Source of the DNA: a virus
Reading direction: 5' to 3' (one strand)
DNA length: 25,643 nucleotides
IMG/VR virus record: IMGVR_UViG_3300022877_000005
Span: 1 to 25,643 of that record
The notes beneath the pieces were generated by a model that saw only the letters and a list, made by a program, of their open reading frames with translations, did not search any database and was not told the DNA's origin. Shown here piece by piece: positions 2,589-15,413 of this stretch (positions are counted from its first letter, which is position 1; every line of letters begins with the position of its first letter). The position numbers and the translations under genes are program-made.

Positions 2589-2621
2589 ACCCCGCAGGAC
2601 TCAATCGAGCTTCTGCGGGGT
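2589..2621. terminator. Bidirectional hairpin between convergent genes
   Basis: ACCCCGCAG (2589-2597) pairs perfectly with CTGCGGGGT (2613-2621) around a 15-base loop. It lies immediately after the plus-strand methyltransferase stop and contains the stop codon of the minus-strand helicase in its loop. Position and GC-rich stem fit a shared terminator for convergent transcripts. There is no strong T run on either side, so efficiency is uncertain. Confidence 0.45.
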
Positions 2622-5573
2622 TACGTCCTTCTCCCAATCGAACTTCGCTGGCATTAGAATTCCCTGCTCCGTCCCACCCTCATGCTTTGTGAACGTTATG
2701 ATTCGTCCTTTGCTTCCCGGCTTCAACTGTCCATAGGCCCCCAGCAGATTCCCGGTAATGATCTTCGCGCGCTGCCGAGTGTCGCTGAGATAGTCCTGAA
2801 ACAACTCAGCAATATCAGCATTGCGGCCAAGATTCGCCAGCGTGATCTTCTTGATTTGCGAACCTGGTACGCGCACCTCGCGCAAAGGTCCGTTGACGGC
2901 AATGTAGAACTTCAGAGAGCTGGGAGCGTATGGATTGCCGCTTACCTTCTTGCGACCGCGAATATCGTAGATAACGCCGTTGTAAGTGTCGCCGTTGATT
3001 TCGATTCTGAGTCCTGATCCCACTCGAAAGTCGTTTAGAATCGTCCGCGACCATTCCCTAATGCGCTCGGCCCGTTCGATGATGTGTGGCGCTTCAACGG
3101 ATGCGATGTATGGCTTGAACAAGCCCTCAAGGTGTGCGCTCAAGGCCCGCGCGTGGTACGTGTCCCGCTGCCATGGCTCGTACTTCATGAGGTCAGGACC
3201 ATAAGTCTGTGCGATCAGTTCGGATACCTCCTCCGGTGTATAAGACTTTCCTTGCCGCTTGATTGAGTATGTCCCGAAGGTGGCGTCTTCCCCGAACGGC
3301 GATGAAGGATCAGACCCAACGTAGATGACGTGCGAGGTCTTCTGCTCTGCGTCGAAGTCGTAGGTCTTGGGCTCAAGGTCATTCTGCCCTGTCTCATCAA
3401 GATACGCGATGTAGTCCGTGTAGCTCTCGGTGATCGTCTCCATAAACTCTCGCTGCTCTTTGACGGGCAAGAGTGCTGAGCGTCCTGTTGCCGTGCGTGC
3501 CAGGTCTTCCTCTGGAGTTCCGCCTTCCTCCTCCGACTTGTCCATCGTCAGGCCCATGAGACGGGCAATCTGCTCATTCTCGTGCAGCCACTCCGCGACG
3601 ATCTTGTCGCCGTACTTGTTCATCATGTCTGGCGCCTCAATCGACATTGCCGACCGCGTGTTGCTCGACGTGTTGGCGTTCAGGCTCTTCAGTTTCTTGG
3701 CGAGGCTGATGGCCGGGCGAATCTCTGCGGGGATGGCCAGGGAGAGCATCGTGTACCTTGGCAGGACCATCTGGCCGGTCCTGTTCGAACGTCCGAGGAT
3801 CTGCATGAACACGTTCACGTCGCCGGCCGGTTGAGCAACGATCATGTGCCGCTGATGTTGGTCTTTGAACTTCTCGGAAGCGTGGAGACTGATTCCTGTC
3901 GAGCCCGCCTGGTTCAGAACCAAACAATCGACGCCGCCATTATTGAACAGGCTGCCGGTCTGCACGCGGTCCTTCCGCTCGCTGGCCGGGACTGAAGACA
4001 GGACAGGGACGGGACCCGCATAGTTGATTCGATACGAGCGTCCGGTAATCTCTGCCACGGTAAAGCCGGCTTGCGTGATTCGAGTCCTGATCCAATCGAT
4101 AGGCGACACCGGCAGCGTTACCGCAAGAGCGTCCAGAAGCCTCTCAGCTTCCCGGTACTTTGCTTCCGTCTCGACGTAGAGCAGATGGCGCGGGAACTCT
4201 TGGCGGTCATTGCCCATTGAGGTCTTGATGGTGTAGTGAAGGGTCCTGTCGAGGGCACGCCTGAGTATGGTGGACCATGAGAGCTTATCAAGCACTTCGC
4301 CCTCGCTCAAGTTCGCCGCACTCACATAGCTGTCGAGGAACGCGCCCATAGTGCTCTCAAGGGCGACAATTGGCTTTTCCCCGCGTCCGAGCGCTTCGAT
4401 GGCGCAATCTGCTGCGGCATCCGACTTCAAGGCCAGGAGAAACTGCTTCACGATGTTGTGGACGATGGCGCTGAACTTGTGATGGTAGATCTTGATGTGC
4501 CGCTTCTTGTACTGGAGGCGCAGAGTCTCGAAATCGTTCTGATGATAGTCCTGATCTGCTTTGAAGATGGCCCGCAAGACTTCCGTCACCTGATCACATA
4601 TATCCTCTTGTGTGTCCTGATTTCTGTCGTCAATGAAGTTCAGGATGCTGATGCCCTCAAAGGACCGCTCACGGCGCACGAGTTGGCCGGTCTGGGCGAG
4701 TTGGTGGCTCACGACGGTCTGTAGTGGTGGACCACCGGCGCGGATGGCGTCAGAGACACGCTGGTTGTCGGGAATGGCAATCGAGATGTCCGTCTTGGTG
4801 GCGTAGAGCGTCATGTTGTCCGGCCGCTTCGCCCACGTTGCCGACAGGAACATCACGCCGTGCGCCGCTGGAAGAACCTCTTGGAAGAACGCTCCTGTGT
4901 TCGACTCATCGCCGCCGGCGTTGTGGGACTCGTCAAGGATGAAGACGGCTTTCGGCGCCAACCGTCTCAGTGCCTCCTGCTGGATGTTGATCGTATTGAT
5001 CTGCGAATAGGTCAAGTACACGGCATTCCGCGCGCGCGGCAGTTCGCCAGTCTCGGCAATCCTTGTCAGGACCCCCTTCATGCTGCTCTTGTTGGCGAAG
5101 ATTTTGCGTCCTGTTGCCTGCTCAGTTATCGACGCCCCGGCATTGAAGAGCAGAGGCCAGACGCTTGGACCGAAGCCGATGTCGTCAAGATCGCGTTGGA
5201 AGTCGGTGAAGAGGGTATCCGAGTAGGTGACGAAGATCGGCAACAGACCGTGAAGAATGGTCCACCGGCAGACAGCCGCCGCTACCCTACCCTTTCCAAC
5301 TCCGGTCTGATCCGCGCACACCAGCGCCCTTTGCTTCCTGATCTGCCAGATGGCCAGGGCAATCGAATCAACCTGGAGGCCCATGAAGTAGCTCTGCATC
5401 TCCTTGACGGAGGGGTACTCCAGTTCGCGGGCCACGAACTCGTCCAAGTCGCCACCCTCAGCCCGGACGCGCTCCATAGCCACCCGCATCGGCTCTTTCA
5501 TTGATCGCGGGCACATCACTGCTTCATCTTGGAGGCTGGAAAGTGAGGCGTAGACCTCTTGATAAGCGTTCAT
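2601..5573 (-). CDS. Strawberry-notch (SBNO)-type helicase
   Basis: The protein has about 990 residues from the ATG at 5573. The same frame extends to an ATG at 5639 (1012 residues). It is a large superfamily 2 helicase of the SBNO-like group found in phages and plasmids: an AAA-type helicase N-half and an SBNO helicase C domain. Visible are ADQTGVGKGR (Walker A, about 87-96), FILDESH (DESH box, 214-217), FLSATWAKRP (motif III) and GRSNRTGQ (motif VI, about 600). The C-terminal third is less conserved. The upstream start at 5639 has no ribosome site; 5573 overlaps the end of a short ORF as ATGA. Phage relatives include the helicase half of P1 DarB, an anti-restriction protein, so protection of incoming DNA is one plausible role and replication is another. 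It lies beyond the late-operon terminator, so it is probably expressed separately. Confidence 0.85.
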   Translation of the reverse strand: MNAYQEVYASLSSLQDEAVMCPRSMKEPMRVAMERVRAEGGDLDEFVARELEYPSVKEMQSYFMGLQVDSIALAIWQIRKQRALVCADQTGVGKGRVAAAVCRWTILHGLLPIFVTYSDTLFTDFQRDLDDIGFGPSVWPLLFNAGASITEQATGRKIFANKSSMKGVLTRIAETGELPRARNAVYLTYSQINTINIQQEALRRLAPKAVFILDESHNAGGDESNTGAFFQEVLPAAHGVMFLSATWAKRPDNMTLYATKTDISIAIPDNQRVSDAIRAGGPPLQTVVSHQLAQTGQLVRRERSFEGISILNFIDDRNQDTQEDICDQVTEVLRAIFKADQDYHQNDFETLRLQYKKRHIKIYHHKFSAIVHNIVKQFLLALKSDAAADCAIEALGRGEKPIVALESTMGAFLDSYVSAANLSEGEVLDKLSWSTILRRALDRTLHYTIKTSMGNDRQEFPRHLLYVETEAKYREAERLLDALAVTLPVSPIDWIRTRITQAGFTVAEITGRSYRINYAGPVPVLSSVPASERKDRVQTGSLFNNGGVDCLVLNQAGSTGISLHASEKFKDQHQRHMIVAQPAGDVNVFMQILGRSNRTGQMVLPRYTMLSLAIPAEIRPAISLAKKLKSLNANTSSNTRSAMSIEAPDMMNKYGDKIVAEWLHENEQIARLMGLTMDKSEEEGGTPEEDLARTATGRSALLPVKEQREFMETITESYTDYIAYLDETGQNDLEPKTYDFDAEQKTSHVIYVGSDPSSPFGEDATFGTYSIKRQGKSYTPEEVSELIAQTYGPDLMKYEPWQRDTYHARALSAHLEGLFKPYIASVEAPHIIERAERIREWSRTILNDFRVGSGLRIEINGDTYNGVIYDIRGRKKVSGNPYAPSSLKFYIAVNGPLREVRVPGSQIKKITLANLGRNADIAELFQDYLSDTRQRAKIITGNLLGAYGQLKPGSKGRIITFTKHEGGTEQGILMPAKFDWEKDVTPQKLD

Positions 5574-5659
5574 ATTCTCGACAGGACGCTGAATCCGAGT
5601 CCTGCGGTTGAGTAGCAATAGTCTGGTTGATAAGTCCATATCAGTGCATTGTAAATCAT
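5570..5659 (-). CDS. Possible short leader ORF upstream of the SBNO helicase
   Basis: A 29-codon ORF begins with ATG at 5659, preceded by GTGGAG at good spacing, and ends with a TGA that overlaps the helicase ATG at 5573 as ATGA. The peptide (MIYNALIWTYQ...) has no recognisable domain. The ribosome site and exact stop/start overlap suggest a translational-coupling leader. It overlaps in another frame the 22 residues that would be added if the helicase began at 5639, so only one reading can be right. Confidence 0.25.
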   Translation of the reverse strand: MIYNALIWTYQPDYCYSTAGLGFSVLSRI

Positions 5660-5772: not shown

Positions 5773-6504
5773 TCATCTCAAAAGGTAACCGCCCACCTGT
5801 GCTCCGAAGAGAATGTCGCTCTTTAGCACGCAAGGAAGCGTTGGGTGTAGCGTGCATTGAGCCAACTTTTGCTCAAGCTGAACCGCCGTGGTAGTGAACT
5901 GCGCTCCGTTCGCCAGCATGATCGTGACGTTTGGACTTGCCATGATGTCGTTGGCGGTTTTGATAGTGGTATCCAGGTCATTTCCGGTGGCTGTGTAGCT
6001 GGCTATGAGGGGCCTCAACTGCATCAGCAAGTCGTTGGCCGTCTTGGCATCTATCGTGACTGTCTGAATGGCTACAGTGGCCGCGTCAGCCGTCTTAGAC
6101 AGGTGTCCCGCTGTATCCTTTACCGCATCGCCAGCCAGATTGAGGTTCTGCGCCGCCGCCGTGATGAGCGGTTGCGTCTGTGCCACCTGCTGTTGCATTG
6201 TCTGGACAGCTGCGCCGGTGTCTTGCACCGTCATCCGAACCGCCGGAATCAGTCCACAAGTTTCAGGGCGCCCCAACTTGCACGGCTTGAGCACGGCAAT
6301 GGTAACGTCGCGACTCTCGGCTGTAACGTCTAAAATGCCCTGGTGCGCGTCCTTGATTGTTTGTGAAAATTCTGGCCCCGGCGCGGAGTTTCCCCACTTG
6401 TCTACGGCCACGATCAAATGGTGCGATATCCCGAAGCATCCCCACACGGTCAGCCCGAGTAGGGATGCTGAAACTACGCCGACGGCGATGGGTAGGAGGC
6501 GCAT
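5773..6504 (-). CDS. Membrane-anchored helical protein, unknown
   Basis: The protein has 243 residues. The N-terminus (MRLLPIAVGVVSASLLGLTVWGC) is a signal anchor or signal peptide; the V-W-G-C at its end only loosely resembles a lipobox. The rest is mostly Ala/Thr/Gln-rich helix (about 85-200), with two short Cys pairs (C-K-x(6)-T-C near 75-85 and C-T...C-V near the C-terminus), consistent with a periplasmic rod. The ATG at 6504 is chosen over an in-frame TTG at 6510 because AAGGG lies just before it and the previous stop is two bases upstream (TGACCATG). As the last gene of the lysis cluster it could play a spanin-like or envelope role, but no family is recognised. Confidence 0.6.
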   Translation of the reverse strand: MRLLPIAVGVVSASLLGLTVWGCFGISHHLIVAVDKWGNSAPGPEFSQTIKDAHQGILDVTAESRDVTIAVLKPCKLGRPETCGLIPAVRMTVQDTGAAVQTMQQQVAQTQPLITAAAQNLNLAGDAVKDTAGHLSKTADAATVAIQTVTIDAKTANDLLMQLRPLIASYTATGNDLDTTIKTANDIMASPNVTIMLANGAQFTTTAVQLEQKLAQCTLHPTLPCVLKSDILFGAQVGGYLLR

Positions 6505-6506
6505 GG

Positions 6507-6599
6507 TCAACCCTTCTTCTTGGCGAAGATGAATTTCAGCGCGGCCACAAGTTGCGACCAGGCGCTTGGCGCGGGGATTACTAACGGGTCTTTGCTCAT
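6507..6599 (-). CDS. 30-residue basic/hydrophobic peptide
   Basis: A very small ORF opens with ATG at 6599, preceded by TGAGGTTCC (a good ribosome site), and stops two bases before the next gene. The peptide has a hydrophobic second half (SQLVAALKFIFA) followed by KKKG, so it probably touches the membrane. The junction TGACCATG suggests translational coupling to the 243-residue membrane protein. A longer frame extends upstream, but that part lies in hairpin sequence without a ribosome site. No homologue is recognised. Confidence 0.5.
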   Translation of the reverse strand: MSKDPLVIPAPSAWSQLVAALKFIFAKKKG

Positions 6600-8381: not shown

Positions 8382-9431
8382 TTACCAGCCTATTGCATAC
8401 CAGTCCCAAGTCTCGCCGCTTGGCTCTGGGTTGACGGTGAACGTGCTGAGTGCCGTACAAGTGGCGGCGGCCGAAGCCGCAGACTGACCGCTCGATATTC
8501 TTGGGCCGCTATCGTTGGCGACAATCTTGCACTGCGAGGTCATGGCGATGGGAAGGTTCTGAGTGCATGGGGTGGTAGAGGTTGTGCAACTGATGGTTCC
8601 CCATTCTTCTATCGTCCCATCTCCGAATTTTATGTAGCACCCATTGGCATTGCATGTGCGCGTCGTTCCGTTTCCAGACACAGCAGAGACTCTACCTTGG
8701 GCGTCTGTGGTGATCGATGAGGGGTTGGTCACCGTGCCGGCCGTGCCAGTGTTCGGAAGTCCAACGTTAGTCTTTCCAGTCCCGTTGCTGCCTACCACCG
8801 TTCCGTCGAAGTTTAAGATTGGCTGCTGGGCGAGCGCCGATCCGTTCTCCTGCACTGTTTGATAGTAGATGGTTGCGGGCGTGGGAAGCGCATTGCATAG
8901 AGCGTTTCCGTTGGATGCGATACCGTAGGCGAAGTATGATGCTGGGTTGCATGCTGTCGGAGTGGATGCAAGGGCATTCGCCGTACTTGAGTTGCCGGTC
9001 AGTGGGCCGATGAAGCCGGATGTGTCAGTGAGCGCGCCGGACATTATTCCACCTTTGGACCAGTCGTCTACCAGCGCAAGGTCATTGACGAAATATGTCC
9101 CATAGGACGATGAAATCAGGACCCCATAATGCCCCACGTGAGCGCAGAAGTAGTAGTTTCCGCCGGCATCGGCCGTGAATGGGTTTGTAGGGGTTGCCGT
9201 GCTGAGGGCTGTTGTGGTGTAGATGTTAACTTTGTTCGCCACGCAATTGGCCGCTGTCGATCCCGACGAGCAGAGCGCCACGGTCGCGTAGGGAATCGGA
9301 GCAATGACGCCGTTTGAGATGGTCTGTGCGACATTGTTCAGGCAAACTCCGATGGGAGCCTGGGCAATGGCAAAGGCCGCGCACAGCCAGAGAGCAGTGA
9401 GGGCGATGATGCGCTTTACTGTTCGATTCAC
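8382..9431 (-). CDS. Tail-fibre-like protein with an N-terminal signal peptide
   Basis: The protein has 349 residues. The GTG at 9431 has GGAGG four bases upstream and overlaps the previous stop as GTGA. Residues 1-24 are a typical Sec signal peptide (KR, then a hydrophobic core, ending AIAQ). The body is Ser/Thr/Asn/Gly-rich, with a fibre-type GGIMSGALTDTSGFIGPLTG stretch near 128-147. The last 85 residues begin YIKFGDGTIEEWG and end WDWYAIGW, resembling the C-terminal receptor-binding domains of phage fibres (the 'W-x-x-F-x-D-G-T-x-x-x-W-G' style). Cysteines are numerous, consistent with an oxidising compartment. A cleavable leader is unusual for a virion protein assembled in the cytoplasm. 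It could be an adhesin, a lysogenic-conversion surface protein, or a true fibre with a retained leader. Confidence 0.65.
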   Translation of the reverse strand: MNRTVKRIIALTALWLCAAFAIAQAPIGVCLNNVAQTISNGVIAPIPYATVALCSSGSTAANCVANKVNIYTTTALSTATPTNPFTADAGGNYYFCAHVGHYGVLISSSYGTYFVNDLALVDDWSKGGIMSGALTDTSGFIGPLTGNSSTANALASTPTACNPASYFAYGIASNGNALCNALPTPATIYYQTVQENGSALAQQPILNFDGTVVGSNGTGKTNVGLPNTGTAGTVTNPSSITTDAQGRVSAVSGNGTTRTCNANGCYIKFGDGTIEEWGTISCTTSTTPCTQNLPIAMTSQCKIVANDSGPRISSGQSAASAAATCTALSTFTVNPEPSGETWDWYAIGW

Positions 9432-9712
9432 AGGGCCTCCGGAGACTTCACCAACTGTGGGCCAGCAACTGCGGCCTCTTGCTGTTTCGAGTCCTGATTC
9501 GGTGCCTGCTGTTCAATCCTTCCAACGATCTGCGTCGAGATGATCTTCCGGCACTCTGGGTTACCGCAGAAGATGATGGTGCCAATCATGCCGCCAGGAA
9601 AGATCTGGTTCATGATCGAGAGTCGGGCCGGATCGTCTGCACAATACGGGCAGGCTGGCAGCATAACAGGGGTCACAATAGCGGTTTCGTTCGGTTCAAT
9701 CTTCGTTTCCAT
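9428..9712 (-). CDS. Small Cys-motif protein, unknown
   Basis: The protein has 94 residues from ATG 9712, with GGAGGG upstream; a TTG at 9727 is less likely. CPYC (about residues 21-24) and CGNPEC (about 49-54) could bind one zinc ion, and between them is a hydrophobic segment (IFPGGMIGTIIF). The C-terminus is Gln/Ala-rich and probably disordered. Its TGA overlaps the fibre-like gene's GTG, so the two are likely made together. No family is recognised; a small zinc-binding partner of the neighbouring surface protein is only a guess. Confidence 0.5.
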   Translation of the reverse strand: METKIEPNETAIVTPVMLPACPYCADDPARLSIMNQIFPGGMIGTIIFCGNPECRKIISTQIVGRIEQQAPNQDSKQQEAAVAGPQLVKSPEAL

Positions 9713-9734
9713 CGGTGTTCCCTCCAAAGCGAAA

Positions 9735-9775
9735 GACTCGCCACTGAGCCTCTTATCAAGGTCCCGTGGCGAGTC
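9735..9775 (-). terminator. 10-bp hairpin between gpI and the accessory/lysis genes
   Basis: GACTCGCCAC (9735-9744) pairs perfectly with GTGGCGAGTC (9766-9775) around a 21-base loop. On the minus strand the stem is followed by TTTCGCTTTG, an interrupted T run. It lies after the tail operon and before the small Cys protein, so it may act as a leaky terminator or attenuator setting the level of downstream genes. Confidence 0.55.
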
Positions 9776-9814
9776 AGACTGGTTCTGTACCCGTCAAAGC
9801 GATTGTACCGCACC

Positions 9815-10951
9815 CTAGTAGCGGTAAAAGGCCAGATGCGTGGCCGTGGGCGGCGGGGCGATGGTGTAGGTGATTGTTGCACCGCTCAATGTGAAGTCAA
9901 CCCCTCCCGGCTTCAGGACTTGCCATCCGCGGTAAAGCCGAAGACTGGCGGCGGGATTCGGGGCTTGCGGCAACGTAAAGACTTTGTTGGTCCCGTTCAG
10001 CGTTCCGGTCGGGGTAATCCAATCCGCAAAGTTTGGTTCAGTTCCGCTTCCGGCGTAGGTTCCCCAAGCGAGAAAAGATGCGCTGCCAATCGGCACAGAG
10101 GGGATGATCGTGTTTCCATCGAGGATGTAGTAATCTTCTCCCGATTCAGAGAACACCGAATCGAGCAAGCACCGTGCCGGCTTGAAGAAGTTGATGATCG
10201 TAGCCATGTAGCTGAGTTGATCTGGAGACGCGCCAAAATTCTGAAACATCCCATTGCGGTAGAGTTCAATGGAAATCGGGGCGTCTGGCAGTACCAGATT
10301 CGACCCTGAGATGGTCGGCACTACGGCATCGAAGTAGAGTGGCGTCCCGTCCGTGGCCTTGCGCATCAGGACACACAACGAAGAATTCAACGTGGGGGCA
10401 AAGGACATGGCGAGTACCGTCCCGGCCGATGTGTAGTCAACTCCTGGACGCTGCAAGAGTCCGTTGTAGAAGACGCGGAGAGAACCGCCCACCGGAATTG
10501 AAGGGAGACTGAATACGCGGTTGCTTCCATCGATTACTCCGATGGGTGATTGCCCTGACCCACTCACTCCGACGCGAAATACAGCCCATCCTTGATTAGC
10601 GGGGTAAGCAGACCCTCCCCACGATGCCTGCCCCTCATAGCAGGTTGCAGTGAAGCCACAAAGCCCAAGTGCTTGGACAATAGCTCCCGGTGTGCCCATG
10701 ATCTTGTGGAGTGGCAGCGCGTTCTGGATGATGGTCTGTGAGGTAACGCCCAACGCCTGCATCGGGACGCTGGGAATCATCATGTCGAGTTCCCATATCA
10801 AGTAGGGGAGGATGGACGCGGGGAGATTGCTGCCTAGCGTCCTGATAAGCAAAGGCGTGAGGTCGATGGACTCAAGGCGCGCAGAGAGTTGCATGTGGGC
10901 TTGGGTGCGGAGGTCATTGATAGATGATGCGGGCCTGAGATTGTTTGCCAT
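9815..10951 (-). CDS. I: Baseplate protein I (P2 gpI family) with added beta repeats
   Basis: The protein has 378 residues. The N-terminal ~110 residues (LESIDLTPLLIRTLGSNLP..., LPYLIWELDM, GTPGAIVQALGLCGF) match the P2 tail protein I family, a baseplate component that connects J to the fibres. The P2 protein is about 176 residues, so this one is twice as long. The extra part holds copies of a small beta module, seen as NRVFSLPSIPVGGSLRVFYN...GVDYT (about 141-175) and NKVFTLPQAPNPAASLRLYR...GVDFTLSG (about 320-355), plus a partial one at LVLPDAPISIELYRNG. Such modules occur in many phage structural proteins and may form the fibre attachment site. ATG 10951 follows AGGAGG at somewhat long spacing. 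It is encoded after the SGNH spike, whereas I normally follows J directly. Confidence 0.8.
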   Translation of the reverse strand: MANNLRPASSINDLRTQAHMQLSARLESIDLTPLLIRTLGSNLPASILPYLIWELDMMIPSVPMQALGVTSQTIIQNALPLHKIMGTPGAIVQALGLCGFTATCYEGQASWGGSAYPANQGWAVFRVGVSGSGQSPIGVIDGSNRVFSLPSIPVGGSLRVFYNGLLQRPGVDYTSAGTVLAMSFAPTLNSSLCVLMRKATDGTPLYFDAVVPTISGSNLVLPDAPISIELYRNGMFQNFGASPDQLSYMATIINFFKPARCLLDSVFSESGEDYYILDGNTIIPSVPIGSASFLAWGTYAGSGTEPNFADWITPTGTLNGTNKVFTLPQAPNPAASLRLYRGWQVLKPGGVDFTLSGATITYTIAPPPTATHLAFYRY

Positions 10952-11068
10952 GTTGTTCAGGCCCTCCTGTGGCCCTCCCTCTATCGTAGATGCCGGCCTT
11001 GCTCAGGCACCGCACCTCTCGTGCCCGACCTGTAAGTAATCCTGAGCCAATCGCATCAGCTTTAGCGC

Positions 11069-13657
11069 TTAGTTCATCCGGTATTCTGCCGATATCGACA
11101 GGTTTGCCGAGGTACATGTGCCCGATGACACTCCGAAGGTGATGTAGTGCCCCGCCGTGAGCGTTGCACTTGAAACCGACCCATCAAAGTCAGTTGCACT
11201 TGTGATGGTGACGGACCCCTTTGTAGTGGGGGAGCTACAAGACCCCGGAGAGGTTCCACAGTCGTACATCGTGATTACCGGGTTTACGGTGCATGTGAAA
11301 GTTGCTGCGGCCCCTTCAATATTCTCGACTGTGCCCGGTTTCACCACTTTGAAAACGCCGATGAATGCCCCAACAGGCAGGCTGGAAACTTGCCCGGTCG
11401 TTGAATAGTATGACGCACGCGGCCCGGCTGAAATTGATGTGTCACCTCCGAAAGCGAAGTTAATTGCACCTATCCCAGCGGGGAATTGATTGCTTGAATT
11501 CACCCCCACATGCTTTGAGCATGTCGCTTGTGTGAGGCTAGAAAATGCCGACGCATGAACGTAAGTGCAAAACAACTCCCCGCCATAGCTGTCGGGGATG
11601 ACGTGCATAATGTATGGTGTCGATCCCCACGCGGACGGTACGCCGAACATCACGCCCGCAGAATACCCCGCTGTCGGATAAGCGGTGGAGTAGTTGAGTC
11701 CCGGATAGACTCCATCGACGGTTACGCTTGGACTCACAACCGATGAAGGGCTGTAGTCCATGTTTGGAACATAGGACGGTTCTGACAGAATCCTATTGAT
11801 CGACCCTGCCGGCGGGATAGGGAGCATGTGGCATCCGCCGCTTAGGAGTTGCGTGTTCGACGTGAGCATCGTCCCGTAGGCATAGTCACACCATCTCCAC
11901 CCAGCCCAGCTATTCGGCTGATAGTGCGTATCCCAGGGGGCATTGGACGCGTCAAAAGATAAATTCCATCCCGCAGCAAAACCGGGCAAAGCTTTGACTA
12001 GATTGATGCCCTGCGAAAGCTGGTTGGGCACACTTGCTGGAGGGAAAGCTGGAGGGAAATACGATATTGCCGGATTATCTTCCACGCTCGTGATCGATGG
12101 GGGGAAGAGTCCCAAAAACTGGTTACTTTTGAATGGAGCGTAGTTGACCGCATTTAGCTTACCCTGGATGAAAGACAAGACGGACTGATAAATGACCTGA
12201 TGGCCTGGGTTGTTGGGGTGGACGCCATCAGCACCAAGCAGTGCTGCATTATTGAGGGCAGGGACGGCGATTGTGTTCGCGGCTCCGTAGGTGGAGTTAA
12301 TCCAAGCCGTCAGCGGGACGTAATTCACGCCGCTTGTTTCAAACAAAGGAAGCAGGTGGTAGACCGTAATCCCCGCTGCCTGCAGTTGTGAGACGATAGA
12401 AGCATAGTTTGTTTCAATTGTTCCGAGCGCCACGCCAAATGCTACATCATTTCTCCCGATGCACAGGATAATCGTTTTGGGCTTCAAGGCGATCAATTCT
12501 GGAATTCGGTTCAGCGTGTCATAGGTTGTTTCCGCGCCGCCGGCATCTACTGTCACGCGATAGTTATCCTGGAGCAGTCCCGACCAACTCAACCAGTATG
12601 GCCCGGCAAACTCCCCGAGCGTCTTAGAGTCGCCCACTGCCAAAATATCAACTCCGGTCGGTGTGCCAGAAGAGATGCTCAGGCTAGTAACCGTCTCCGT
12701 TCCGCCGAAGTAATAAATGGCGAACTTGCCGCTGTTCCCCGGCACGTATGGGTTTGTGGTGAGATTGGTCCACTGGTAGGAGGTTGAGACGGGGGCGCTT
12801 TGCGTCGTCACGTCATAAGCTGAGACGTTGATTATATCGTAGTTCCGGCTCACTGTCAGGCTAATGGTATCTCCTGCGGCGAGTGTAAGAGCCGTCGCGG
12901 ATGTAGCCACGGGTGCCGTAACATTCGATCCAGCGTCAAGTGCCAACTGTACCTTTCCAGCAAGGGAATCGTTGGACAAATCGATCAGGCCGACAATGTT
13001 TTCACGATACGAACTGACCCAGTTGTTGCTACGAGTTCCGATTCCGATTGCCGTGTTTGTGCTGATCGCGCCCGCAATGATCGTCTCCGTCATTGACCAG
13101 ACAGGAAGATCAGTGGTCCAGTTGTAATCAAGAGTCTGCGAGTAGCTTGGCGTTCCGCCACTGAAAACAAAATTACCACCCGTGATCGTGGGAGTGGCAC
13201 CATTGGATGTGAATCCATTAAGGTTCGTCCAATTCGAGCCACTATAAATTTGACCGAGTGCTGGAAGGTTATTTGTCACGACAAAGCCATTCGAGCACAC
13301 GCTTCCTGCGGGCGCTCCAGATGGACATGCAGCGCCAGCTGCGAGGGTGCCTGAGAACGATGCGCTGGTGCCGGTGAGTGCGCCGGTCAGCGTACCGCCA
13401 GTTGCGGGTAGATTCTTCACCCATCCAGAGGTTGTGCATTTGTACTCGACATTATTCGTCGTGTCCTGATAAGACTGTCCCCACTCTGCTCCATAGGGGT
13501 AAACAGTGTAGTTTCCGTTCTGGGTGCACGTGATCGAAGGCGCACCAGAACCGGAAAGCAAATTCCATTTAATCTGATAAGTCGGGTCAATCTGCGTCTG
13601 AGCAAAGCAGGTGATAACTGACAAGATCAGGAAAATAAAGAGCGCGATTCGTTTCAT
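11069..13657 (-). CDS. SGNH/GDSL-hydrolase tail spike with signal peptide
   Basis: The protein has 862 residues; ATG 13657 follows AAGGAG at ideal spacing. Residues 1-20 form a Sec-type signal peptide ending CFAQ. Residues about 85-105 carry a fibre-like GGTLTGALTGTSASFSG stretch. Residues about 140-335 look like a jelly-roll, lectin-like sandwich. Residues about 337-500 are an SGNH hydrolase: VGDSKTLG (catalytic Ser344), AGG in block II (372-374), IGRND (block III, Asn403) and DGVHPN (Asp477, His480). The C-terminal ~350 residues are beta-rich and unassigned. SGNH enzymes remove O-acetyl or other acyl groups, so the likely substrate is acylated surface polysaccharide of the host. Location between baseplate J and I supports a virion adsorption role; the leader peptide does not fit a cytoplasmically assembled tail protein. 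Confidence 0.75.
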   Translation of the reverse strand: MKRIALFIFLILSVITCFAQTQIDPTYQIKWNLLSGSGAPSITCTQNGNYTVYPYGAEWGQSYQDTTNNVEYKCTTSGWVKNLPATGGTLTGALTGTSASFSGTLAAGAACPSGAPAGSVCSNGFVVTNNLPALGQIYSGSNWTNLNGFTSNGATPTITGGNFVFSGGTPSYSQTLDYNWTTDLPVWSMTETIIAGAISTNTAIGIGTRSNNWVSSYRENIVGLIDLSNDSLAGKVQLALDAGSNVTAPVATSATALTLAAGDTISLTVSRNYDIINVSAYDVTTQSAPVSTSYQWTNLTTNPYVPGNSGKFAIYYFGGTETVTSLSISSGTPTGVDILAVGDSKTLGEFAGPYWLSWSGLLQDNYRVTVDAGGAETTYDTLNRIPELIALKPKTIILCIGRNDVAFGVALGTIETNYASIVSQLQAAGITVYHLLPLFETSGVNYVPLTAWINSTYGAANTIAVPALNNAALLGADGVHPNNPGHQVIYQSVLSFIQGKLNAVNYAPFKSNQFLGLFPPSITSVEDNPAISYFPPAFPPASVPNQLSQGINLVKALPGFAAGWNLSFDASNAPWDTHYQPNSWAGWRWCDYAYGTMLTSNTQLLSGGCHMLPIPPAGSINRILSEPSYVPNMDYSPSSVVSPSVTVDGVYPGLNYSTAYPTAGYSAGVMFGVPSAWGSTPYIMHVIPDSYGGELFCTYVHASAFSSLTQATCSKHVGVNSSNQFPAGIGAINFAFGGDTSISAGPRASYYSTTGQVSSLPVGAFIGVFKVVKPGTVENIEGAAATFTCTVNPVITMYDCGTSPGSCSSPTTKGSVTITSATDFDGSVSSATLTAGHYITFGVSSGTCTSANLSISAEYRMN

Positions 13658-13676
13658 GCTGAAGTCTCCTTGTGGA

Positions 13677-14963
13677 TTAGCTAACTGGTTGGTTCTTTGT
13701 GCCCATAACGATGGTGAGGTTTACCGCAGTGCAGTTTGCCCATTGTCCTGCTGTGAGCAAGAAACTGCCGTCAGAAGTTGGCGTGAGTGGTGTCCCGCCG
13801 ATGTTTGCGGTCAGCGTTAGTTGCATGTCGTAGACGCCAGAAACACTGAGCGCCGATTGCCATTGGCTCAGGACTATATCTTGCTCGATGTTTGCGGCGA
13901 GCGTCAAGGCGAGATTCTGGGCGGCCGCAGTGATTCCAGCGGCGATGGTCGAGTAACTGGCGTTGGCGTAGAGCGTGATCGCTCCGGTCACGGTGTAATC
14001 AACTTCGGTCACAGCCGAAACCAGAACGGTGTCGCAAAGAGGACGCACGGTCTGCGCACTGAGAGCCGATTGAACAGCGGAAAGCAGCGTGCCAGAGGCA
14101 ATGCCAGAACTGTTTGGGGATGCGGACGGTTGCGTTACGGGTCCTGTCAGGACATAGACCTGCACCGTGCCCGGCGTTGTCGGCGTTGTCGGGACTTGCG
14201 CATCAACGATTGTCGAACTCACGTCAAGCGCGAGAGATCGGTACTGCCCTGATGGACCAGCCGTCGTGAGGTTGTTCGGCGCTGCCTGAATGCGCGTGCG
14301 GTAGTGGTTGTCTCCCGCAGTCGTTCCGGCCGGCTCTCCGTCAGTTCCATTGGCCGTTGTGGTAGTGTTGGCGACGGCAGAGACGAGCGGAAAAGAACCC
14401 ATCAGGACACTGACTTGTCCGGCAATATAGCCGTTGCCGCTGAGTCCCGCCGTGGTGCATTGCGCCGCCACAGTGCCGACCGTCTGCCCGGCGACTATCG
14501 TGAGCGCCGCAGTCGTGGCGAAGATGTTGAGGCCGTCTTGAGTCCCGACCTGCGTGCCAGAGGCTATCGTGGTGTCGGATGACTGTGATGCAGTGAGCGT
14601 GAACTGTAACGTCGTGGTGGCGTACTGCGCGGGTAGCCTGGTGCAATCCAGATACTCGCCGAGGTAGTCCAGCATCGGATAGACGGCGAACGCGAGCAGG
14701 TTCTGAAGACCGCAATACTGGATCGCATTTCGGACCAGAATCTCGCGGTAGGCGTAGAGATTGATAAGCAACTGCTCTACCTGGGCCGGGTAGAGGGTCC
14801 TGCTGGTGTAACTCTCAAAAAGCGTCACCATGTCGTTCAGGACACTCGTCGGGTCGAGGCCGTCTGAGTCGTTGACGAATGAAGGTGTGGGCAGGTCAAC
14901 AGGGACTGTCTGAGGAGTGCCGGTGGCCGGCGGGAACGAGTTCGCGGGGATTATGACCGGCAT
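13677..14963 (-). CDS. J: Baseplate assembly protein J (P2 gpJ family)
   Basis: The protein has 428 residues and belongs to the baseplate J-like family, the wedge component that forms the periphery of contractile-tail baseplates. Recognisable features are the N-terminal helical part (LNDMVTLFESYTSRTLYPAQVEQLLINLYAYREILV), the YLGEYLDCTRLPA segment, a GTxVGTQDGLxFATT beta region, the PAGTTAGDNHYRTRIQAAPNN element typical of the family, and a C-terminal domain with VDYTVTGAITLYA. ATG 14963 directly follows the TAA of the previous gene (TAAATG), with GGAG upstream. Gp25/W before it is the usual neighbour. Confidence 0.88.
   Translation of the reverse strand: MPVIIPANSFPPATGTPQTVPVDLPTPSFVNDSDGLDPTSVLNDMVTLFESYTSRTLYPAQVEQLLINLYAYREILVRNAIQYCGLQNLLAFAVYPMLDYLGEYLDCTRLPAQYATTTLQFTLTASQSSDTTIASGTQVGTQDGLNIFATTAALTIVAGQTVGTVAAQCTTAGLSGNGYIAGQVSVLMGSFPLVSAVANTTTTANGTDGEPAGTTAGDNHYRTRIQAAPNNLTTAGPSGQYRSLALDVSSTIVDAQVPTTPTTPGTVQVYVLTGPVTQPSASPNSSGIASGTLLSAVQSALSAQTVRPLCDTVLVSAVTEVDYTVTGAITLYANASYSTIAAGITAAAQNLALTLAANIEQDIVLSQWQSALSVSGVYDMQLTLTANIGGTPLTPTSDGSFLLTAGQWANCTAVNLTIVMGTKNQPVS
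14141..14153. repeat. Palindromic pair of the over-represented hexamer GTCCTG
   Basis: GTCCTG-T-CAGGAC is a perfect inverted repeat inside gene J. It unites both orientations of a hexamer that recurs about 60 times across 2590-25643. It is the only place where I saw the two orientations abut so closely. No function is known. Confidence 0.4.
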
Positions 14964-15413
14964 TTAAGAAGCTCCTCCCACAGATATTGTCGTGCTCTCT
15001 GTGCCTATCGTAGTCGTGGTAGAACTGCTCGACCCCATATTCGGCTTCCAGTTGATCGTCACGGTCAGAGTCCCGATGTTCGTTGTGCTGGCTACCACAT
15101 CGACGCTCTCAAGTGTGATGCGCGGTTCCCAGTCGGCAATAGCGGCAGAGATGGCACCGATGATGGCCGGAATCGCAGCGGTGAGCGGCCGGTCAAGGAA
15201 CTGCGTCAGGTCGCATCCAAACGTGGGGCGGAATGGATCTTCACCGGGGATTGTCGAAAAGATGATCTTGAGGCACTGGTGAACATCCGCATAGGACTGG
15301 CAAACTTGTCCGAGTCCTGAACCAGCACCGCCCCCAGCCGTCGAGTCAAGCATCAGCTCCCAGCTCGACGACTGGATGTTGGTGAGGGTCGCATATGGAA
15401 AAGTCGTTGCCAT
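14964..15413 (-). CDS. W: Baseplate wedge protein W / gp25-like
   Basis: The protein has 149 residues of the GPW/gp25 family, a wedge component with lysozyme-like topology that nucleates sheath attachment. Supporting segments are DVHQCLKIIFSTIPGEDPFRPTFGCDLTQFLDRP (the R-P-x-F-G-x-x-L signature), IGAISAAIADWEPRITLESV and a final beta strand LTVTINWK. The C-terminus has a Ser/Thr run. ATG 15413 overlaps the previous TAG region (AACTAGATG) and has GAGGAA upstream. It matches the family in length (P2 W is 115 residues; T4 gp25 is 132). Confidence 0.88.
   Translation of the reverse strand: MATTFPYATLTNIQSSSWELMLDSTAGGGAGSGLGQVCQSYADVHQCLKIIFSTIPGEDPFRPTFGCDLTQFLDRPLTAAIPAIIGAISAAIADWEPRITLESVDVVASTTNIGTLTVTINWKPNMGSSSSTTTTIGTESTTISVGGAS

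Follow-up and report, generated by a model that had tools for sequence, protein, structure and literature searches.

Sec signal peptides on exchangeable spike-like proteins of uncultured phages, including a putative SGNH hydrolase encoded between baseplate genes J and I

Here, we describe a family of phage proteins that combine a predicted Sec signal peptide (SP) with a conserved N-terminal module and exchangeable C-terminal parts, and of which one member is encoded between the baseplate genes J and I. We propose, with a probability of slightly less than one half (about 0.48), that these proteins are exchangeable receptor-binding spikes which would leave the cytoplasm via Sec, lose their SP by cleavage, fold in the periplasm and be attached to the particles at lysis. 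At the level of sequence, we can demonstrate that the SP module exists, is conserved and evolves under purifying selection, as well as the exchange of its passengers, the position between J and I, and the recurrence in other lineages. The starting point is a stretch of 25,643 nt, the complete record IMGVR_UViG_3300022877_000005, referred to as the window; a near-identical sequence is part of a 61-kb contig (L064) of the same phage.

The gene between J and I and its neighbourhood

The features of the region are collected in Table 1. Coordinates and strand of the 862-aa open reading frame, called the slot gene in the following, agree exactly with those in an earlier note on this DNA. The block from the ribosome binding site to the ATG is conserved among relatives; together with the Shine-Dalgarno sequence it rules out a wrong start codon.

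Table 1. Features of the tail region, in coordinates of the window
Feature	Position	Strand	Basis
Second fibre, SP-bearing, Cys-rich, Gp53-like C-terminus	8382..9431	-	SP rule, Pfam PF21882, relatives with SP
Signal peptide of second fibre, likely cut between A23 and Q24	9363..9431	-	rule on relatives: FAIA before, QAP after the cut
Small conserved protein with CxxC pairs, between I and second fibre	9428..9727	-	translation, synteny
Baseplate I (Tail_P2_I), long C-terminal extension	9815..10951	-	Pfam PF09684, E 2.7e-6
SGNH spike-like protein with SP, 862 aa, J-I slot	11069..13657	-	ORF and translation, PF13472, slot kept in relatives
SGNH/GDSL hydrolase domain, residues 340-488	12194..12640	-	Pfam and residues checked
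Mature part of conserved N-terminal module, residues 20-96, Cys44 and Cys74	13370..13600	-	identity in contigs, alignment A6, dN/dS
Sec signal peptide, residues 1-19, predicted cut between A19 and Q20	13601..13657	-	tripartite rule; dN/dS 0.36, 14 relatives
Shine-Dalgarno AAGGAG, 8 nt upstream of slot-gene ATG	13666..13671	-	sequence; kept in relatives
Baseplate J	13677..14963	-	Pfam PF04865, E 1.3e-44
Baseplate wedge gp25	14964..15413	-	Pfam PF04965, E 7.3e-17

The full SGNH catalytic set reported for the protein stands up to inspection. A Pfam search places Lipase_GDSL_2 (PF13472) at residues 340-488 with 56.5 bits against a curated cut-off of 32.9 (E 6.6e-15), and S344, N403, D477 and H480 occupy the motifs GDS, GRND and DGVHP in catalytic order. 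We propose an esterase or deacetylase activity, predicted from these residues, that would suit acylated surface polysaccharide. Beyond the SGNH domain, the 862-aa protein itself has no match to known spike or fibre families; siblings with the same module and other SP proteins have such matches. Its description as a long beta-rich spike could not be confirmed, as a single-sequence AlphaFold model of the whole protein reaches a pLDDT of only 33.

Baseplate_J and Tail_P2_I flank the open reading frame, which places the gene inside the tail/baseplate operon, as had been stated. I was said to follow J directly as a rule, and this is what we find in nine named phages as well as in most relatives with J at 67-76%, so that an inserted slot gene is unusual. 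In relatives of the window, J is likewise followed by the SP spike, I, the small protein, the SP fibre and the downstream genes, in this order. At three loci (L014:3787-4389, L017:2721-3305 and L019:2551-3222), an additional ORF of approximately 200 aa separates J from the SP spike gene.

The second fibre carries 13 Cys in 349 aa, and its match to PF21882 (E 7e-4) lies below the family cut-off. Its family exhibits a Cys-rich N-terminal domain unlike that of the slot module, a variable C-terminus, and an SP in the relatives as well. In the C-terminal half of the second fibre, residues 131-297 show similarity to a PilV pilus-tip adhesin (shufflon) encoded on a Salmonella plasmid (33%, E 2e-4).

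Signal peptide and N-terminal module

The slot protein starts with the leader MKRIALFIFLILSVITCFA, followed by QTQ, which comprises a positive n-region, a hydrophobic core and the predicted cleavage site C17-F18-A19 in front of Q20. All SP calls were made with a tripartite rule of our own (n, h and c regions, small residues at -3/-1) and not with SignalP; this rule may not match the signal-peptide preferences of the host. Within the window, it is passed by the slot gene, the second fibre (8382-9431) and a membrane protein (5773-6510), and by no other gene; the first two are thus the only tail genes with an SP by this rule. None of 28 tail-region genes from the nine named phages passes the same rule. 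Gln occupies +1 in 33 of 45 SP ORFs. A chance hydrophobic N-terminus is ruled out by the recurrence across loci and by the named-phage controls. This is in good agreement with the Sec signal peptide that the earlier note assigned to the spike-like protein, and Sec export of the SP proteins appears well supported by their sequences.

A comparison of 14 close relatives gives dN/dS ratios of 0.36 for the SP and 0.10 for codons 20-82; substitutions in the SP core mainly replace one hydrophobic residue by another. Judged by these ratios, the SP is under purifying selection. Purifying selection, together with the recurrence of leaders on unrelated fibre families, suggests that the leader does something. 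Both observations speak against the view that the leaders are inefficient or post-translational export signals, with most of the spike staying in the cytoplasm, the usual assembly, and a minor or no exported pool. Such a view would fit the rule of cytoplasmic assembly in tailed phages and the occurrence of related domains without an SP; we regard it as improbable.

Residues 1 to approximately 96, i.e., the SP and a small domain with a Cys pair, recur in about 34 viral contigs at 82-95% identity. The parts behind this module are exchanged. Clustering of residues 131 onwards at 90% identity yields 18 passenger types among 19 module proteins of at least 400 aa, with unrelated C-terminal parts, and 15 types among the 19 if any match of at least 100 aa joins two of them. 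The passenger of L042 is tailspike-like, with End_N_terminal and a pectate-lyase family (PF12218, PF12708), and that of L038 combines a PHROG tail fibre match with an SGNH domain different from the window's. Where passengers match PHROGs with a named function, these are tail fibre, tail spike, and tail or virion structural proteins. In the Pfam/PHROG scan, one member of set A4 matches Baseplate_J; it was left out of the argument.

Most module passengers have no esterase domain; by these comparisons, the esterase is one of many passengers. Taken as a whole, the interpretation in the earlier note is borne out in part. A spike-like protein with an SGNH domain, a Sec signal peptide and a resulting conflict with assembly is what we find as well. 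Its reading as a surface esterase is correct with respect to the SGNH domain and the SP but too narrow, since the same SP module carries unrelated and mostly non-esterase passengers. Its other suggestion, a leader retained as an assembly anchor, is disfavoured for the reasons given below.

An N-terminal fold for baseplate attachment was also looked for. The model of the module (pLDDT 65) consists of the leader helix and short strands, and a search with it in PDB and BFVD gave no match at E<=1e-3, only weak collar-, Mtd-N- and fibre-like ones. Scans of cellular genome contigs with both N-terminal modules confirmed no relative, and a cellular origin was rejected.

Mature slot proteins are rich in cysteine, with a median of 1.55% versus 0.28% in the window's other structural proteins (P 0.002), and in a second family, described below, SP proteins reach 1.96% versus 0.94% in SP-less fibre-like proteins (P 1.5e-6); both P values are optimistic, as the proteins are related.

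Recurrence and leaderless relatives

Loci were sampled by J alone. All loci with J at 88% or more and enough downstream sequence carry an SP slot gene. In the 67-76% group, J is mostly followed directly by I and then by one to four SP fibres; in two of these loci, L117 and L118, the slot holds a different SP protein of 249 aa. At 54% or less, the rule finds an SP ORF in one of six J loci. In a second J family, which was defined starting from loci with an SP fibre, 35 loci extend for 2.5 kb or more downstream, and 31 of these contain an SP ORF; further proteins in L141, L176, L179 and L197, which the rule missed, resemble the SP proteins by eye. Several of the sampled contigs are near-identical, so the loci are not independent. 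On this basis, SP-bearing spike-like proteins recur in other phage lineages. A search of the named phages for relatives of the spike, of a diverged module, of the second fibre or of the L203 fibre found none. One phage contig carries a tandem of five fibre-like genes that are SP-bearing and Cys-rich (L003:6528-20308).

The leader appears to be a separable unit. Directly after a tail tube gene, L035:1393-2715 encodes a 440-aa protein without SP whose start, MDILTGNGEPSQVC, aligns with the region immediately behind the SP of the L117 slot protein (32%, 163 columns, E 8e-11). The L203 fibre combines an SP with an N-terminus of the TPNIGL type, which also occurs close to the beginning of genes without SP in L171 and L176. 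Related fibre domains thus occur with and without an SP, which suggests that the leader is removable. The L035 domain, which is related to the mature module, also has the Cys pair, so that Cys pairs alone are no proof of export.

These relatives bear on the idea that the leader stays uncleaved as a hydrophobic anchor or assembly peptide and inserts the N-terminus of the spike into the baseplate. In line with it, close relatives conserve the leader, and the gene lies between J and I. Against it, the signal-peptidase site is preserved in diverged families (A/G/S at position -1, Gln at +1 in most), whereas their hydrophobic cores have drifted; the L035 domain begins without leader at about the mature start; and the second fibre family, whose N-terminus is unrelated, has a similar leader. 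We consider a retained anchor very improbable.

The cassette may also move. In the 125-kb contig L004, two SP fibre genes (8569-12800) form an island with a GC content of 0.47-0.55 between flanks of approximately 0.30-0.40, and the module shares 90% DNA identity with the window over 216 nt. From these two observations, the spike cassette appears to cross between unrelated phages.

Export, assembly and possible roles

Tail spikes of tailed phages are normally assembled in the cytoplasm, and signal peptides are usually taken to mean that a phage-encoded protein is not part of the virion. The conflict between a Sec leader and cytoplasmic assembly, which had been pointed out for this protein, is upheld by our analysis. 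We know of no precedent for the joining of an exported spike after lysis.

In the reading that we prefer, this phage has two exchangeable receptor-binding spikes, and the slot gene encodes the one whose passenger is an SGNH esterase/deacetylase. The cleavable Sec signal peptide would carry the spike across the inner membrane, signal peptidase I would cut between A19 and Q20, and the mature spike would fold in the periplasm, probably with disulfides, e.g., C44-C74. At lysis, it would meet tails made in the cytoplasm and bind to the baseplate via its conserved N-terminal domain, and it may double as a free enzyme. We infer export, cleavage and disulfides from the sequence features described and, above all, that the mature spike joins the virion at or after lysis. 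Membership in the virion is suggested by the gene position, the modularity, the matches to spikes and fibres, and the 61-kb contig, whose sole SP-less fibre candidate is the C-terminal extension of I. It is a more tentative proposal, with a somewhat less than even chance in our view, that many uncultured phages pass receptor-binding spikes through the host Sec system, as disulfide-bonded proteins added to tails at or after lysis, and thus finish assembly outside the cytoplasm.

The main rival, which we consider rather unlikely, is that the SP proteins are secreted and never become virion parts. They would act in the periplasm or outside the cell, as enzymes and adhesins that modify the surface or matrix of the host, with roles in superinfection exclusion, in receptor or capsule deacetylation, or in aiding the release of progeny. 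Co-expression would then account for their position in the tail operon, and an ancestry shared with spikes for their fibre-like domains. Cleavable SPs and richness in Cys are as expected for such proteins, and in phages of the second family the SP genes are accompanied by fibre-like genes without SP, whose products could be the true receptor-binding proteins. In phage lambda, the SP protein Lom has its gene among those of the tail (PMC12309495), and the SP proteins of Porphyromonas gingivalis phages with Gln at +1 may be a further case (PMC10367356). The spike-like modularity and the fixed J-I position are harder to reconcile with secretion only; the same holds for the passenger matches to tail and virion families and for the window's phage, in which no SP-less fibre gene other than the extension of I is visible.

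The known systems differ in several points. Tailspikes and receptor-binding proteins of contractile-tailed phages (P2 gpH position, SGNH-bearing fibres) are likewise encoded in the tail operon beside J/I, with a conserved N-terminus and swapped C-terminal enzyme or binding domains, and some slot-family members match tailspike and tail-fibre families. Unlike them, the slot protein has a conserved Sec SP, and its gene lies between J and I, whereas theirs follow I. Lom is an outer-membrane beta-barrel, unlike the modular spike-like slot protein with its enzyme and fibre passengers. The P. gingivalis phage proteins share the Gln after the cut, in accordance with the Q-rule of Bacteroidetes, but are of unknown function and not described as tail spikes (PMC10367356). 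WceF of Pantoea is a tailspike-like polysaccharide enzyme with an export signal, but it is a bacterial gene product with a Tat signal, encoded outside a phage tail operon (PMC7949094). A survey of phage targets of diversity-generating retroelements found no SPs and read this as supporting phage origin (PMC6199706). Our literature search, with preprints and most subscription papers outside its range, found no report of SP-bearing tail fibres.

If the spikes are exported and virion-borne, assembly of tailed phages would include an extracytoplasmic step, and fibres could make use of disulfides. If they are secreted only, these phages would equip the cells they infect with exchangeable surface enzymes. 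In both cases, enzymes with an SP on environmental viral contigs may be tail spikes rather than host-derived metabolic genes.

Two further genes of this phage were recorded. The window encodes a Strawberry-notch-like helicase family protein at 2601-5639 on the minus strand, with 27-34% identity to proteins of many plasmids. The 61-kb contig carries a phage-borne permuted (two-piece) tmRNA (L064:12421-12717, minus strand), which reaches 87.7 bits with the Rfam model tmRNA_permuted and for which ARAGORN gives the tag AKNTDSAKNAKVLAFPARPAVALQMAA.
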